64,000 bases of DNA from positions 4,464,001 through 4,528,000 of the forward strand of contig NZ_CP061281.1 in assembly GCF_014621695.1 (NCBI RefSeq). The letters run 5' to 3'. The DNA comes from Streptomyces xanthii. GTDB lineage: Bacteria; Actinomycetota; Actinomycetes; Streptomycetales; Streptomycetaceae. Shown piece after piece: positions 23,958-30,264 of this stretch. A program made the translations under genes and the position numbers. Numbering within the stretch: the stretch's first letter is position 1; each line of letters begins with the position of its first letter. The notes under the pieces were generated by a model. The model did not search any database and was not told the origin of the DNA. It saw nothing but the letters and a program-made list of their open reading frames with translations.

Positions 23958-24593
23958 TCATGTGAAGCGCCGCGCCCCTGAAGGCGTCACGACCGCGTCC
24001 ACCGCCTTGTCGTGCTCCTCCGTGGGCACCTCGTCGAGGACCTCGCGGTCGTAGAGCAGCACCACCAGGTCGGGCCGGACACCGGCGGCCTCCAGGCGGG
24101 CCAGGACGCGGTCGTACGAGCCTCCGCCCCGGCCGAGCCGCTTCCCGCGCGCGTCCACGGCGAGGCCGGGCAGCAGGACGACGTCGGCCTCCAGGACGGC
24201 GTCGGGGCCGAGCCGCGGCCCCGCGGGCTCCAGGAGGGCCATCTTGCCCGCGTGTTCGACACGGGCCAGCGAGCCGGGTCCCTCGTAGGCGCCCCAGTCG
24301 AGGTCGTTGTCGGCGAGCAGGACGGGCAGCAGGACGCGGGTGCCGCGGGCCCGCAGGGCGTCCAGGAGGGTGCCGGTGCCGGGCTCGCCGCCGACGGACA
24401 CGTACGCGGCGACCGTGCGGGCCGAGGCGAGTGCCTCCAGCTCCAGGGCGCGGCGGGCGAGAACCGTCTCCGTCTCCCGCACGTCATCCACAGTCAACGC
24501 TCTCCTCACCGCGAGGAGCTCTCGTCGCAACGTGCGCTTGTCAGGGTGAGCGCCACGCGGGTCACTCGGTGGCCGGCTCATGGGCTGACTCAT
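23958..24593 (-). CDS. 5-formyltetrahydrofolate cyclo-ligase
   Basis: 211 residues. Family features: DKRTLRRELLAVRRAL at the N-terminus, YVSVGGEPGT, DVVLLPGLAVDARGKRLGRG and the ATP/folate loop GRGGGSYDR. It converts 5-formyl-THF to 5,10-methenyl-THF with ATP in one-carbon metabolism. It is divergent from galU, an arrangement widespread in Actinobacteria. ATG 24593 or an internal ATG at 24581 could initiate; no strong ribosome-binding site distinguishes them. Confidence 0.94.
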   Translation of the reverse strand: MSQPMSRPPSDPRGAHPDKRTLRRELLAVRRALTVDDVRETETVLARRALELEALASARTVAAYVSVGGEPGTGTLLDALRARGTRVLLPVLLADNDLDWGAYEGPGSLARVEHAGKMALLEPAGPRLGPDAVLEADVVLLPGLAVDARGKRLGRGGGSYDRVLARLEAAGVRPDLVVLLYDREVLDEVPTEEHDKAVDAVVTPSGARRFT

Positions 24594-24675: not shown

Positions 24676-25590
24676 ATGGTGACGGGCATGACTGACTCGC
24701 ACACCAGGATCACCAAGGCTGTCATCCCTGCCGCGGGCCTCGGCACCCGGTTCCTGCCCGCCACCAAGGCGACTCCCAAGGAGATGCTCCCGGTGGTGGA
24801 CAAGCCGGCGATCCAGTACGTGGTCGAAGAGGCCGCCTCCGCGGGTCTCGACGACGTGCTCATGATCACGGGCCGCAACAAGCGCCCGCTCGAGGACCAC
24901 TTCGACCGCAACTACGAACTGGAGTCCGCCCTCCAGAAGAAGGGCGACGCGGGCCGCCTGGCCAAGGTCCAGGAGTCCAGCGACCTGGCCACCATGCACT
25001 ACGTCCGCCAGGGCGACCCCAAGGGCCTGGGCCACGCCGTCCTGTGCGCCGCCCCCCACGTGGGCGACGAGCCCTTCGCGGTCCTGCTCGGTGACGACCT
25101 CATCGACCCCCGCGACCCGCTCCTCGCCCGCATGGTCGAGGTCCAGGAACGGCACGGCGGCAGCGTCATCGCCCTCATGGAGGTCGAGCCGTCCCAGATC
25201 CACCTCTACGGCTGCGCCGCGGTCGAGCCCACCGGCGACGGTGACGTCGTGAAGGTCACCGACCTCGTGGAGAAGCCCGAACCGGCCGACGCCCCGTCCA
25301 ACTACGCGATCATCGGCCGCTACGTCCTGGACCCCCACGTCTTCGACATACTGCGCAAGACCGAGCCCGGCCGCGGCGGCGAGATCCAGCTCACCGACGC
25401 CCTCCAGCAGCTCGCCGCGGACGAGAAGGTCGGCGGCCCCGTCCACGGCGTCGTCTTCAAGGGACGCCGCTATGACACCGGCGACCGTGGAGACTATCTG
25501 CGGGCCATTGTCAGACTCGCGTGCGAACGTGAGGACCTGGGCCCCGACTTCCGGACCTGGCTTCGCAGTTACGTCACCGAGGAGATGTAG
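24676..25590 (+). CDS. galU: UTP-glucose-1-phosphate uridylyltransferase
   Basis: 304 residues of the nucleotidyltransferase family: PAAGLGTRFLPATKATPKEM (activating Lys region), VVDKPAIQYVVEEA, LLGDDLI (metal Asp) and GRRYDTGDRGDYLRA at the C-terminus. It makes UDP-glucose for wall polymers, trehalose and glycolipids. Start could be ATG 24676 (TAGTCG ends six bases before, hinting at leaderless expression) or ATG 24688. The stop is followed after four bases by the TTG of moeA, so the two are co-transcribed. It heads the galU-moeA-moaC-mog-GNAT-sepX cluster. Confidence 0.96.
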   Translation: MVTGMTDSHTRITKAVIPAAGLGTRFLPATKATPKEMLPVVDKPAIQYVVEEAASAGLDDVLMITGRNKRPLEDHFDRNYELESALQKKGDAGRLAKVQESSDLATMHYVRQGDPKGLGHAVLCAAPHVGDEPFAVLLGDDLIDPRDPLLARMVEVQERHGGSVIALMEVEPSQIHLYGCAAVEPTGDGDVVKVTDLVEKPEPADAPSNYAIIGRYVLDPHVFDILRKTEPGRGGEIQLTDALQQLAADEKVGGPVHGVVFKGRRYDTGDRGDYLRAIVRLACEREDLGPDFRTWLRSYVTEEM

Positions 25591-25594
25591 GACC

Positions 25595-26944
25595 TTGAGC
25601 AGCGCGACCACGCCCTCCAGCAGTCACGGCCACCTCTGGTCGGTCGACGAGCACCTGGAGGACATCCTCAGCACCGTCCACCCGCTCGACCCCATCGAGC
25701 TGCAACTCCTCGACGCCCAGGGCTGCGTGCTCGTCGAGGACGTGACGGTGCCGGTCTCGCTGCCCCCGTTCGACAACAGCTCGATGGACGGCTATGCGGT
25801 GCGCGTCGCCGATGTCGCGGGCGCGAGCGAGGAGTTCCCCGCCGTGCTGACCGTGATCGGCGACGTCGCGGCCGGCCAGTCCGAGCAGCCCACGGTCCGC
25901 CCCGGCCAGGCCGCCCGCATCATGACCGGCGCCCCGCTGCCGCCCGGCGCCGAGGCCGTCGTCCCCGTCGAGTGGACCGACGGAGGGCTCGGCGCGGGTC
26001 CCGTCAGCACCATGACGGCCCACAGCGCCGCCCCGGAGGGCGCCTCCGGCGAGGTCCGCGTCCACCGCGCCGCCCAGGAGCGCGCGCACGTCCGCGCGCG
26101 CGGCAGCGACGTCAAGGCGGGCGACCGCGCCCTCTCCGCCGGCACCGTGCTCGGCCCGCCGCAGATCTCCCTGCTCGCCGCGATCGGCCGCGGCACCGTC
26201 CGCGTACGCCCGCGCCCGCGCGTGGTCGTCGTCTCCACCGGCAGCGAGCTCGTCCAGCCCGGCGAGCCCTTGGCCCAGGGCCAGATCTACGACTCGAACA
26301 GCTTCGCCCTGACCGCCGCCGCGCGGGACGCCGGAGCCATCGCCTACCGGGTCGGCGCGGTCGCCGACGACGCCGAGACGCTGCGCTCCACGATCGAGGA
26401 CCAGCTGATCCGCGCCGACCTCGTCGTCACCACGGGCGGCGTCAGCGTCGGCGCGTACGACGTCGTCAAGGAGGCGCTCTCCGCGATCGGCGACCCCGAC
26501 GACGAGGACGGCATCGGCGCGGGCGGCGGCGTCGAGTTCCGCAAGCTCGCCATGCAGCCCGGCAAGCCGCAGGGCTTCGGCTCCATCGGCCCCGACCACA
26601 CCCCGCTGCTCGCCCTGCCGGGCAACCCGGTCTCCTCGTACGTCTCCTTCGAGCTGTTCGTGCGCCCCGCGATCCGCAGCCTCATGGGGCTGCCCGCGGG
26701 CCAGGTGCACCGGCCGCAGGTCCGCGCGAAGCTCACCGCCGACAAGGCGCTGACCTCGCCGGCCGGCCGCCGCCAGTTCCTGCGCGGCGCCCACGACCCC
26801 GCGACCGGCACCGTCACCCCGGTCGGCGGCGCCGGCTCCCACCTCGTCGCCGCCCTCGCCCACGCGGACGCCCTGATCGTCGTCCCCGAGGCCACCACCT
26901 CCGTGGAGCCCGGCACCCAGGTCGACGTCGTGCTGCTGAGCTGA
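25595..26944 (+). CDS. moeA: MoeA/gephyrin-family protein, probable Glp divisome factor
   Basis: 449 residues, starting at TTG 25595 with AGGAGA and TAGGAC upstream. The MoeA domains are all present: NSSMDGYAVR, RIMTGAPLPPGAEAVVPVEW, RARGSDVKAGD, VVVVSTGSELVQPGE, IYDSN, TTGGVSVGAYD and AMQPGKPQGFG. Classical MoeA inserts molybdate into molybdopterin. The E. coli K-P-G-K-P motif reads Q-P-G-K-P here. In Corynebacterium a MoeA homologue encoded near galU and a membrane partner gene (Glp with GlpR) binds FtsZ; GlpR is homologous to Streptomyces SepX, which lies 2 kb downstream here. A division role, alone or with Moco synthesis, is therefore a serious alternative. Confidence 0.9.
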   Translation: MSSATTPSSSHGHLWSVDEHLEDILSTVHPLDPIELQLLDAQGCVLVEDVTVPVSLPPFDNSSMDGYAVRVADVAGASEEFPAVLTVIGDVAAGQSEQPTVRPGQAARIMTGAPLPPGAEAVVPVEWTDGGLGAGPVSTMTAHSAAPEGASGEVRVHRAAQERAHVRARGSDVKAGDRALSAGTVLGPPQISLLAAIGRGTVRVRPRPRVVVVSTGSELVQPGEPLAQGQIYDSNSFALTAAARDAGAIAYRVGAVADDAETLRSTIEDQLIRADLVVTTGGVSVGAYDVVKEALSAIGDPDDEDGIGAGGGVEFRKLAMQPGKPQGFGSIGPDHTPLLALPGNPVSSYVSFELFVRPAIRSLMGLPAGQVHRPQVRAKLTADKALTSPAGRRQFLRGAHDPATGTVTPVGGAGSHLVAALAHADALIVVPEATTSVEPGTQVDVVLLS

Positions 26945-27043
26945 GCGTCTGCCCTCCCCTCCGGGGCGCGCGGTAGCGTGTCGCGCACAAACTGTCCGGC
27001 GCGCCGCACCGCGCACGGCTCGGATCGGGAGCGCCACAGCACC

Positions 27044-27523
27044 ATGAGCACTTCGCAGGACCGACTGACCCACATCGACGAGGCGGGCGCCGCCCGCATG
27101 GTCGACGTGTCGGAGAAGGCCGTCACCGCGCGCACGGCCCGCGCCAGCGGGCGGGTCCTCGTCTCGCCGCGCGTGATCGAACTGCTGCGCGGCGAGGGCG
27201 TTCCCAAGGGCGACGCCCTCGCGACCGCCCGCATCGCGGGGATCATGGGCGCCAAGCGCACCCCCGACCTCATCCCGCTGTGCCACCCGCTGGCCGTCTC
27301 CGGGGTGAAGCTCGACCTGTCGGTGGCCGACGACGCGGTGGAGATCCTCGCCACCGTGAAGACCACGGACCGTACGGGCGTCGAGATGGAGGCCCTCACG
27401 GCGGTCTCCGTCGCCGCGCTCACCGTGGTCGACATGATCAAGGCCGTCGACAAGGGCGCCGTCATCTCGGACGTGCGCGTCGAGGAGAAGACGGGCGGCA
27501 AGTCCGGGGACTGGCACCGATGA
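27044..27523 (+). CDS. moaC: Cyclic pyranopterin monophosphate synthase MoaC
   Basis: 159 residues, full family length. Motifs include [33 protein letters not shown], the LCHP-centred [12 protein letters not shown] and the catalytic region [16 protein letters not shown] followed by DMIKAVDK. MoaC converts the MoaA product to cPMP in molybdopterin synthesis. ATG 27044 has GGGAG about 11 bases upstream. A possible separate promoter (-10 TAGCGT at 26974-26979) lies in the 99-bp gap after moeA. moaA is not in the window. Its stop overlaps the next ATG (ATGA). Confidence 0.95.
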
Positions 27524-28071
27524 GCGACACGTACCGCGCCCTGGTGGTCACGGCGTCCAACCGCGCCGCGGCCGGCGTCTACGAGGACAAGGGCGGCCCC
27601 CTGATCGCCGCCGGACTCGGCGCGATGGGCTTCGCCGTCGAGGGCCCCCAGGTCGTCCCGGACGGCGACCCCGTGGAGGCCGCGCTGCGCGCCGCCGTCG
27701 AGGCCGGCTACGACGTCGTGGTCACCACCGGCGGCACCGGCATCTCGCCCACCGACCGCACCCCCGAGGCCACCGCCCGCGTCCTGGACCGGGAGATCCC
27801 GGGCATCCCGGAGGCGATCCGCGCGTACGGCCGGGAGAAAGTGCCCACGGCCGCGCTCTCCCGTGGCCTCGCGGGCCTGGCCGGGCGCACACTGATCGTG
27901 AACCTGCCGGGTTCGAGCGGAGGCGTGAAGGACGGGCTCGCCGTCCTCGGGCCGCTGCTCACGCACGCCGTCGACCAGATCCGCGGCGGCGACCACCCCA
28001 GACCCGACGCCGGTCCGGACGACGGGCCGGACGCCGGGCCCGATGCCCACGCCCCCGGGGGTGCGCACTGA
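27520..28071 (+). CDS. mog: MogA/MoaB-family molybdopterin adenylyltransferase
   Basis: 183 residues. MogA/MoaB fold: [40 protein letters not shown], the [17 protein letters not shown] loop and [16 protein letters not shown]. It should adenylylate molybdopterin before molybdate insertion. Coupled to moaC by an ATGA overlap. After about residue 160 comes a low-complexity Asp/Pro/Gly tail ([18 protein letters not shown]), probably disordered and variable. Its stop overlaps a potential CTG start of the acetyltransferase. Confidence 0.93.
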
Positions 28072-28736
28072 ACAGCCCGTCCTGGCCCGTGGTCCTGGCG
28101 GAGGGCGATGTCGTCCTGCGCCCCATAAGGCTGCGCGACCAGCGCGCCTGGCGCGAGGTGAACCGGCGCAACCGCGACTGGCTGCGCCCCTGGGAGGCGA
28201 CGATCCCGCCGCCCACGCCCAGCGGCCCGATCACCCACCGCCCGACGTACCGTCAGATGGTCCGCCACCTGCGCGGGGAGGCGAACGCGGGCCGGATGCT
28301 GCCCTTCGTCATCGAGTACCAGGGCCGTCTGGTGGGCCAGTTGACCGTCGCGGGGATCACCTGGGGCTCGATGTGCGCGGGCCACGTCGGCTACTGGGTC
28401 GACGAGTCCGTGGCCGGGCGCGGCGTGATGCCCACGGCCGTCGCGCTCGCCGTCGACCACTGCTTCCGCACGGTGGGCCTGCACCGCATCGAGGTCTGCA
28501 TTCGCCCGGAGAACGGGCCGAGCCGCAGGGTCGTGGAGAAACTCGGATTCCGCGAGGAGGGCCTGCGCCCCCGCTATCTCCACATCGACGGGGCCTGGCG
28601 GGACCATCTCGTGTTCGCGCTCACTGCCGAGGAGATCCCCGAAGGGCTCCTGAAGCGGTGGCGGCGCGAGCGGCGCAGCAAGACCGCAGGTCCGAGCGGC
28701 TCGAACACGCTCGACCCGGGCGCCCCCTCGAAATGA
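28068..28736 (+). CDS. RimJ/RimL-like GNAT acetyltransferase
   Basis: 222 residues from a proposed CTG start at 28068, or 215 from GTG 28089. The CTG lies in CTGA overlapping the mog stop, has GGGGG six bases upstream and adds NSPSWPV; the GTG has no Shine-Dalgarno. RimJ-type GNAT features: VVLRPIRLRDQRAWREVNRRN, YWVDESVAGRGVMPTAVAL (acetyl-CoA loop) and RPENGPSRRVVEKLGFREEG. Relatives acetylate N-terminal residues or Lys. A rimJ-like gene between moeA and sepX/glpR is conserved in Actinobacteria, so a link to division is possible. The Arg/Lys-rich C-terminus is variable. Confidence 0.9.
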   Translation: MNSPSWPVVLAEGDVVLRPIRLRDQRAWREVNRRNRDWLRPWEATIPPPTPSGPITHRPTYRQMVRHLRGEANAGRMLPFVIEYQGRLVGQLTVAGITWGSMCAGHVGYWVDESVAGRGVMPTAVALAVDHCFRTVGLHRIEVCIRPENGPSRRVVEKLGFREEGLRPRYLHIDGAWRDHLVFALTAEEIPEGLLKRWRRERRSKTAGPSGSNTLDPGAPSK

Positions 28737-28908
28737 AATAAGTGTTCGAAATTGATCGCGGATCGACCGCCGGAGGCATTAAATTCCCGCCCCGGGCGGC
28801 CGGTTGATCGCATCAGTCGCAAAAAATGCTCGAAATATCAGCCAGATCGTGCGACACACCGGCCCAATTGGCGGATGGCCTCACGCAAACCCCTCTACGG
28901 TGTGAGGC

Positions 28909-30078
28909 GTGAGCAGCAGCGGCCTCATCTACGCAGTCATCGTCGGGGCCTGGGCCGCCTACTTGGTGCCGATGTGGCTCCGTAGGCAGGACGAGCTGAA
29001 CGAAGCCCGTCCGACGGAACGCTTCAGCACCGCCATCCGGCTTCTCTCCGGCCGGGCGGGCATGGAGCGCCGATACGCCAAGGACCTGCAGGCGCGCCCG
29101 CCCGAGGCGGACGAACGGCCCGGCGCCCCGGCCGACCCGGACGCGACCACCGACGCGGTGGACGTCCGGGCCTTCGTCGCGCCCGCGGCAGGGGAGCGCA
29201 AGCCCCCCGCGCGGCGCCGCGCCCCCGAACCCGAACCGGCGCCCGAGCCGGAGCCGGCCGCCGAGCCGGAGCCGGAGGCGGCCCCGCACCCGGCCCGCCC
29301 CGCGCGCGACGGCGCCGCCGCGGCCGCGCAGGCCCGCGCTCGCCGCACCAAGGTCCTCGCGCGCCGCCGCCGCACCACGGTGCTCCTGTTCGCCGCGTTC
29401 TCCCTCGGCGCCGTCGTCGCCGGAGTCGGCGGCGTCGCCTTCCTGTGGGCGCCCGCCGCGCCGGCCCTGCTCCTGAGCGCGTACATCGTCTATCTGCGCG
29501 CCCAGGAGCGCCGCCGCTTCGCCTACGTGATGGACCGTCGCCAGGCCGAGATCGCCGCCCAGCGGCTGCGCGAGCGCCAGCCGCGCCGCCGTCAGCCGGC
29601 CGCGCAGCGCGCCGCGGCCGAGGACCTGGAGGACGGCCCAGAGGCCGTCGAGCCGGCCACCGACCCCGGGCTCGAGGCGCTCGCCGCCGACCGGCGTGCC
29701 CTCGTCGAGCAGACCGACCACGCCGAGTGGGTCGACCAGCAGCGCGAGCGGCAGGCGCGGCCCGGCGCGGGCGACAGCTGGGACCCGGTCCCGGTGCCGC
29801 TGCCCACGTACGTCACCGCGCCGGTCGCCCCGCGCGCCGGCGGCGGCATCGACTACGGCGCCCCGGAGACCTGGAGTGCGGCCCGCTCCTCCGCCGCCGA
29901 GCAGTCGGCCCCCGAGGAGCAGGAGTACGAGCGCGAGCAGACGGCGGACGACGGGCGCAGCGACGCCCGCCGCGCCGCCTCCGCCCGCCGCTCCCGCGAG
30001 CGCGGCCGCACCCCGCTCTTCGATCAGTACGACAACGGCACGGGCGCGGACGGCCGGCCGCGCGCCGCCAACGAGTGA
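28909..30078 (+). CDS. sepX: SepX (GlpR homologue), septation membrane protein
   Basis: 389 residues. An N-terminal helix (GLIYAVIVGAWAAYLVPMW) is followed by the highly conserved RRQDELNEARPTERFSTAIR block, a Pro/Glu-rich linker (about 95-135), two close helices (TTVLLFAAFSLGAVVAGVGG; FLWAPAAPALLLSAYIVYL) and a long charged, disordered C-terminus. I recognise this as Streptomyces SepX, which controls FtsZ ring stability in cross-walls and sporulation septa. Corynebacterial GlpR is the homologue and receptor for Glp. TACGGT ends seven bases before GTG 28909, suggesting a leaderless mRNA from the AT-rich 172-bp gap. Confidence 0.9.
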   Translation: MSSSGLIYAVIVGAWAAYLVPMWLRRQDELNEARPTERFSTAIRLLSGRAGMERRYAKDLQARPPEADERPGAPADPDATTDAVDVRAFVAPAAGERKPPARRRAPEPEPAPEPEPAAEPEPEAAPHPARPARDGAAAAAQARARRTKVLARRRRTTVLLFAAFSLGAVVAGVGGVAFLWAPAAPALLLSAYIVYLRAQERRRFAYVMDRRQAEIAAQRLRERQPRRRQPAAQRAAAEDLEDGPEAVEPATDPGLEALAADRRALVEQTDHAEWVDQQRERQARPGAGDSWDPVPVPLPTYVTAPVAPRAGGGIDYGAPETWSAARSSAAEQSAPEEQEYEREQTADDGRSDARRAASARRSRERGRTPLFDQYDNGTGADGRPRAANE

Positions 30079-30181: not shown

Positions 30182-30255
30182 GGGCCTGTGGCGCAGTCTG
30201 GTAGCGCACCTCGTTCGCATCGAGGGGGTCTGGGGTTCAAATCCCCACAGGTCCA
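30182..30255 (+). tRNA. tRNA-Ala (anticodon CGC)
   Basis: A 74-nt cloverleaf: acceptor GGGCCTG/CAGGTCC with one G-T pair, D arm with GCGC/GCGC, anticodon stem CCTCG/CGAGG around TTCGCAT (anticodon CGC, codon GCG), and TCTGGGGTTCAAATCCCC T arm. Discriminator A30255; CCA is not encoded. It reads the very abundant GCG alanine codon and is followed by a terminator. Confidence 0.95.
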
Positions 30256-30264
30256 CCGCAATTG

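Follow-up and report, generated by a model that had tools for sequence, protein, structure and literature searches.

In this work, we focused on the MoeA-family protein encoded in a six-gene block (galU, moeA, moaC, mog, a rimJ-like gene and sepX, all on the plus strand at positions 24676..30078) of a 64,000-nucleotide stretch of Streptomyces xanthii DNA (contig NZ_CP061281.1, positions 4,464,001 to 4,528,000), the whole of which is called the window below. Our reading, to which we give a probability of about 0.64, is that the window MoeA holds two jobs, that of a molybdenum cofactor (Moco) enzyme and that of a Moco-independent scaffold tied to SepX, and that this double role is ancestral in Actinomycetes. 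We infer from experiments in Corynebacterium glutamicum and from the SepX neighbourhood that the second job in Streptomyces is cell division. A division role of the window MoeA is plausible; the evidence is at least as good for its still being the molybdotransferase. The published account, in which the divisome protein Glp no longer acts as an enzyme and is invariably accompanied by a paralogue, does not fit the window MoeA, and this is what is new here.

According to this reading, the window MoeA would insert molybdenum for the Moco synthesis of this genome, in concert with the MoaC and Mog encoded next to it, and would also serve as a Moco-independent scaffold tied to the SepX/GlpR protein encoded downstream. 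When a lineage gained another MoeA that took over Moco synthesis, or dropped Moco, moaC and mog would leave the block and the active site would decay, the protein staying for its second job. The end point would be the dedicated Glp known from Corynebacterium, the protein being specialised in Corynebacteriales and bifunctional in Streptomyces. Intact copies linked to moaC and mog are assigned to Moco work because many genomes show no other MoeA, and decayed copies to another task, as they are retained in genomes lacking Moco genes. Since both kinds share a clade and a locus, and the second job appears to have been kept whenever the first was lost, the simplest history is an ancestor that did both; the window protein, being intact and encoded alongside SepX, would then be expected to combine the two to this day.

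The window MoeA and C. glutamicum Glp fell into one clade of 59 rows in a quick tree (Shimodaira-Hasegawa-like approximate likelihood ratio test, SH-aLRT, 99), which family f50 joined at 93 (f, G and L numbers are our designations of families, genomes and loci). NCBIfam labels the protein 'molybdotransferase-like divisome protein Glp' and the product of the last gene 'divisome protein SepX/GlpR', SepX and GlpR being treated as one family, and both matches lie above the cut-offs (Table 1). A protein search with the window MoeA gave at least 7999 candidates, at least 7998 of them at E 1e-30 or better, with many Glp names among the matches listed. A first-pass annotation of this DNA, made from the sequence alone, had proposed a Glp-type MoeA and, as last gene, a SepX homologous to GlpR, and both proposals hold; as the NCBI models already name this MoeA as Glp, its main inference was in public annotation, and the Glp identity is not new.

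In C. glutamicum, as shown by Martinez et al. 2023 (PMC10522489), a loop in domain IV of Glp binds the FtsZ tail through contacts on L435, V437, P438 and F440, and deletion of the same loop also abolishes the binding of GlpR, which is direct. The FtsZ tail of the window genome, ELDVPDFLK, is a fitting counterpart of the tail bound there. In Megrian et al. 2025 (PMC11733289), Glp-bearing bacteria are said to hold at least two MoeA copies, and Glp is predicted to be without an enzyme role rather than moonlighting. SepX was described by Bush et al. 2022 (PMC8748795). Literature searches found no work on Streptomyces MoeA in division and no binding data for Glp outside Corynebacterium, and none of the open-access papers searched names both SepX and GlpR; a moeA mentioned in PMC13118837 lies, in the text seen of that paper, near bkd genes.

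The active-site alteration predicted in print for Glp was not seen in the window MoeA. Eleven positions, which we take to form the active site, were compared in E. coli numbering (D59, T100, R137, D142, E188, D228, D259, K275, K279, R350 and S371); nine are residues mutated in PDB entries of E. coli MoeA, and D259 and K275 are presumed. The window MoeA reads DTRDEDDKQRS at these positions and E. coli MoeA DTRDEDDKKRS, i.e. 10 of the 11 residues are kept, the sole difference being a change of K279 to Q that is common among linked copies, whereas C. glutamicum Glp reads DTRDEGARHRS. The surrounding motifs diverge likewise, with FDNSSMDGY, TTGGVS and PGKPQ in the window protein vs FAQAAIDGY, TGAVGG and PGSVQ in C. 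glutamicum Glp. These residues suggest that the intact window MoeA has enzyme activity. Its hinge 2, RPRPRV, is proline-rich (P-R-P-R or K variants), as it is in 14/14 Streptomycetaceae Glp, 6/6 Glp of family f3 and 48/57 other linked rows vs 5/65 non-linked rows; hinge 1 reads HPLDPIEL in the window protein vs VAPEPVRI in C. glutamicum, as read off the alignment.

The gene repertoire of this genome was examined as well. Both moaC and mog of the window are sole copies (one PF01967 match; PF00994 matches only mog and two MoeA), MoaA is encoded elsewhere, and nine PF00384 matches suggest that real molybdoenzymes are present. Another moeA, the existence of which the first-pass annotation had left to be checked, was found at C1:3981936, so that this genome fits the published statement of at least two copies. 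It is of a different type (NF045515 just 167.3 bits), reads DTREEDDGRPP at the active site, i.e. without R350 and S371, and matches no MoeA or Glp equivalog model above cut-off. The same type was the extra copy in 14/14 Streptomycetaceae genomes read (15 copies) and occurs in other families too.

To follow linkage and active site across the class, 142 MoeA-family sequences from 82 Actinobacteria genomes were aligned with E. coli MoeA and C. glutamicum Glp; 24 of the 144 alignment rows were dropped by hand to thin close relatives, leaving 120 rows for the quick tree. For Streptomycetaceae, 41 genomes were searched and 14 read, the genus members G112, G131 and G150 of the class sample being left out. 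A core of seven residues was scored, D259E counting as intact. Among 63 rows of the Glp clade, the core was intact in 46 of the 47 rows beside moaC/mog, the exception being G144 (D142A), vs none of the 16 rows without (Fisher p 5e-14, a value that ignores kinship). The f3 rows G084 and G138 have a mog-like match 4.2-4.4 kb upstream, and G138, which is among the 63, was manually scored as unlinked. Not included in the 63 are four rows that fall outside the clade (f44_G106_L065_4588, f17_G026_L140, f5_G137_L052 and f54_G115_L042, the last being linked, with the core intact and R350 and S371 lost). When all 77 galU/rimJ rows were counted, thinned or not, the core was intact in 58/59 with moaC and in 1/18 without, this lone row being f44_G106_L065_4588, the galU-like neighbour of which scores just 44 bits.

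All 16 clade rows without moaC-mog combine a decayed active site with a still adjacent rimJ. Copies of f3 are mildly decayed, with 7 to 8 of 11 positions kept, and those of f41, f46, f48, f56 and f57 strongly (0 to 4 of 11). A single origin of all decayed rows was rejected (approximately unbiased, AU, test, p 3.5e-5, with groups named after the trees had been seen). The quick tree grouped decayed f3, f41, f45, f56, f57 and f60 (SH-aLRT 98) and placed f46/f48 and Aeromicrobium G153 elsewhere; such deep grouping of decayed rows is doubtful, several of them being long branches that may attract one another. The galU-moeA block with moaC-mog is the common arrangement in the class-wide sample and probably the ancestral one; the order of the Corynebacteriales type, which lacks these two genes, looks derived. 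The first-pass annotation had supposed that a division cluster had taken in moaC and mog. An insertion of the two genes in Streptomyces was rejected, the block holding both being the common one, and the best reading is the reverse, i.e. that they left the block in other lineages.

By number of MoeA copies, the 78 Actinomycetes genomes comprised 5 with no MoeA, 38 with one and 35 with more than one (matches over cut-off), and the statement that Glp always has a MoeA paralogue was rejected on this count. Of the 38 single-MoeA genomes, 29 have as their one MoeA the galU/rimJ-linked gene beside moaC (core intact in 28); in three the single copy is not galU/rimJ-linked (G146, G152 and G155), and the remaining six have no MoaC and a decayed linked copy. 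Ten proteins, nine of those 29 and that of Aeromicrobium endophyticum, were scanned and all exceeded the Glp cut-off (518-607 bits vs 475), so that the sole MoeA of Moco-making genomes is labelled a divisome protein; among nine decayed copies scanned, four reach this cut-off, one of them exactly.

Seven MoeA-bearing genomes, from five families, are without MoaC (G090, G094, G095, G107, G109, G118 and G136). MoaA over cut-off was found in 0/7 of them vs 6/6 controls, with weaker radical S-adenosylmethionine-like matches in four of the seven (best 1.7e-21), and each holds a single PF00384 match (E 1e-24 to 1e-30), presumably NuoG. All seven keep a decayed galU-linked MoeA followed by rimJ; if Moco is really absent, these decayed proteins cannot serve its synthesis. 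Five further genomes without MoaC, from family f53, have no MoeA either. Eleven decayed loci were examined for SepX, of which nine were scanned (L072 was left out); a SepX/GlpR-family protein follows rimJ in 9/9 scanned (2/9 over the NCBI cut-off), and L090 (f45) shows no SepX candidate directly after rimJ.

Both states were met in one genus, that of G153 and G103 (g91), which appears to be Aeromicrobium. Each of 39 Aeromicrobium-type genomes has one moaC match. Among the copies read, 7/7 linked ones were intact and 15/16 unlinked ones decayed; in the other 16 linked genomes moaC lies within 1.4 kb of the MoeA match (coordinates only). Unlinked copies all occur in genomes with a further MoeA. 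The extra copy of G194 and G225, which keep an intact Glp, was taken as the second Streptomyces type by Pfam score only. Named loci agreed in 20/20 cases (11 linked and intact, 9 unlinked and decayed); this set overlaps the unnamed one and includes one Propionibacteriales bacterium and one actinobacterium LLX17, a 21st locus, L203, with a partial gene, giving no row. A single origin of unlinking was rejected (AU p 6e-4). The ratio of nonsynonymous to synonymous substitution rates (dN/dS, simple counting method) between decayed copies was 0.03-0.12 in 22 of the 24 within-group pairs listed, the other two (G207-G221 and G207-G223) giving 0.27-0.30: decayed Aeromicrobium copies are under purifying selection. 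Family f48, in which one genus has an intact moaC-linked gene (L047, G097, at a contig end) and another a decayed gene without MoaC or full-scoring MoaA (L079, G109), is a candidate for a second natural experiment.

Several observations weigh against a two-job MoeA. The loop by which C. glutamicum Glp binds FtsZ and GlpR (M361 to Y369) is absent from 14/14 Streptomycetaceae Glp, where it is short and of varying length; M361 and Y369 are each found in 0/14 of these and in 6/6 of f3, and in 0/57 and 15/57, respectively, of the other galU/rimJ-linked rows. Streptomyces would thus either contact FtsZ/SepX differently or do without such contact, and, M361 being absent from the linked rows outside f3, a division role in most lineages rests on synteny with SepX. 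An aromatic residue stands in the Y369 column in 19/57 of the other linked rows (Y or W in Moco-free f41, f45, f46 and f48), which, in so gappy a column, may or may not reflect a shared contact. AlphaFold models of the window protein and, as control, of a mycobacterial Glp were compared with the open (8bve) and closed (E. coli 1g8l) forms; the window model fits neither well (root-mean-square deviation 7.7 to 8bve_A and 8.8 to 1g8l_A), and the control likewise fits neither (13.1 to 8bve_B and 13.5 to 1g8l_A). On the enzyme side, K275 and K279 vary even among intact copies. The enzyme role might instead fall to the second Streptomyces MoeA, and versions of its type that adjoin moaC-mog in f53 and f60, where S371 is kept, may well be active.

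The comparative evidence has weak points of its own. Loss of Moco from the seven genomes, if real, is deduced from MoaC, MoaA over cut-off and PF00384 in draft assemblies of about 70-150 contigs (98-100% stated completeness; 7% contamination in G118), and SepX is matched only weakly in f45 (39-46 bits). Only three contrasts are independent of kinship; each goes the way expected (sign test p 0.25). In Aeromicrobium, the expected direction was seen in two of three independent pairs (p 0.5), a single origin of decay was not rejected (p 0.10), and G203 is unlinked yet not decayed. Over all Aeromicrobium pairs, decayed copies have a median dN/dS of about 0.34 and intact ones of about 0.35, so that selection is not visibly stronger on either.

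Among the alternatives, the one that survives best, though we hold it unlikely, is an ordinary housekeeping MoeA: the Streptomyces gene would only make Moco, SepX would be merely co-located, and the division role would have come later, in Corynebacteriales and separately elsewhere. The intact active site, the adjacent sole moaC and mog and the lack of the FtsZ loop in the 14 Streptomycetaceae sequences read are all as it would predict. It is countered by the decayed copies beside rimJ, which arose more than once and persist in the seven genomes that have neither MoaC nor a MoaA over cut-off, as repeated decay at the same locus would call for repeated separate co-options there. We see still less in favour of a Moco-independent job that is real but other than division, e.g. 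scaffolding of GalU, of the acetyltransferase or of some further partner in the block. Such a job would suit the continued presence of galU and rimJ beside decayed copies in most lineages read and the Corynebacterium-only binding data; it sits poorly with the SepX/GlpR-family protein after rimJ at every decayed locus scanned, two of nine over cut-off, and with the direct Glp-GlpR binding published for C. glutamicum (PMC10522489).

The two jobs might also be coupled, the open or closed state of the dimer, or its occupancy by molybdopterin/Moco, setting the engagement of SepX/FtsZ. We give this little chance; cofactor supply would then report to septation, moaC, mog, moeA and sepX being kept together for that, and lineages losing the coupling would be left with a plain scaffold. 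Highly improbable, finally, is a dedicated Glp as published, the Streptomyces protein having lost its enzyme role and another MoeA making Moco: the NCBI model name, the two or more MoeA_N matches in 40/41 Streptomycetaceae genomes and the enzyme loss predicted by Megrian et al. 2025 (PMC11733289) speak for it, but the active site is conserved with moaC-mog adjacent, the gene is the only MoeA, beside moaC, in 29/38 single-MoeA genomes, the second Streptomyces type is without R350 and S371, and G194 and G225, the extra copy of which resembles that type by Pfam score, keep an intact Glp.

If the window MoeA does combine both jobs, MoeA moonlighting would be ancestral in Actinomycetes and the repurposing in Corynebacteriales its end point, both states, and perhaps an intermediate one (G203), would be alive in one genus, Aeromicrobium, and Streptomyces moeA mutants may show division phenotypes. 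The Glp label could then hide Moco synthesis in metabolic reconstructions, affecting the sole molybdotransferase of many actinomycetes.

The gene order given by the first-pass annotation, with moeA starting at a TTG four bases past the galU stop, was borne out by coordinates and profiles (Table 1). The order was identical in 14/14 Streptomycetaceae genomes with loci read and recurs in many other Actinomycetes families, and the block is therefore not a chance arrangement. The mog gene overlaps moaC through ATGA. The rimJ-like product scores 76.3 bits, under the cut-off of 190, against the NCBIfam model for ribosomal protein S5-alanine N-acetyltransferase, and the sepX product had no match in the Pfam scan.

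Table 1. Genes of the galU-sepX block, in window positions, with their profile matches
Gene	Product or feature	Positions	Strand	Profile match (score; cut-off)
galU	UTP-glucose-1-phosphate uridylyltransferase, first gene of the block	24676..25590	+	TIGR01099 (344.1 bits; 326.8)
moeA/glp	MoeA domains I-IV, catalytic motifs kept	25595..26944	+	PF03453, PF00994, PF03454; NF045515 Glp_gephyrin (570.9 bits; 475)
moaC	cyclic pyranopterin monophosphate synthase	27044..27523	+	TIGR00581 (210.4 bits; 141.5)
mog	molybdopterin adenylyltransferase-like	27520..28071	+	PF00994 (97.9 bits; 26.6)
rimJ-like	RimJ-like GNAT acetyltransferase, start codon uncertain	28089..28736	+	Acetyltransf_3 PF13302 (70.8 bits; 25.4)
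sepX	membrane divisome protein (GlpR family), GTG start	28909..30078	+	NF050099 SepX_GlpR_2 (240.9 bits; 150)

Around the block, ARAGORN called a tRNA-Arg inside the sepX coding sequence (29208..29305, minus strand); since Rfam at gathering threshold does not call it, the prediction is probably spurious, prompted by coding DNA rich in G+C. A tRNA-Ala with CGC anticodon lies at 30182..30257 (plus strand), about 100 bases 3' of sepX. Upstream of galU, a divergent open frame of 211 amino acids (23958..24593, minus strand) could, going by the mycobacterial neighbourhood, encode a 5-formyltetrahydrofolate cyclo-ligase.

Among known systems, the closest is Glp (Cgl0883) of C. glutamicum, which belongs to the same clade, shares the P-R-P-R hinge 2 and provides, as 8bve, the best PDB sequence match of the window MoeA. 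Its gene lies near glpR (PMC10522489), and the order galU-moeA-rimJ was read in its sampled f3 relatives. The two differ in that the catalytic motifs are altered and the FtsZ loop is present in C. glutamicum Glp, the window MoeA being the opposite in both respects, and in that moaC-mog adjoin moeA in the window. E. coli MoeA has domains I-IV and 10/11 active-site residues in common with the window MoeA, but is without the P-R-P-R hinge; its gene is not known to stand in a division locus. If our reading is right, animal gephyrin would be a parallel, a single protein that makes Moco and scaffolds a membrane receptor (PMC11733289). It differs in that MogA is fused to it, whereas mog is a separate adjacent gene in the window; the window MoeA lies outside the eukaryotic family, and its receptor binding is putative.

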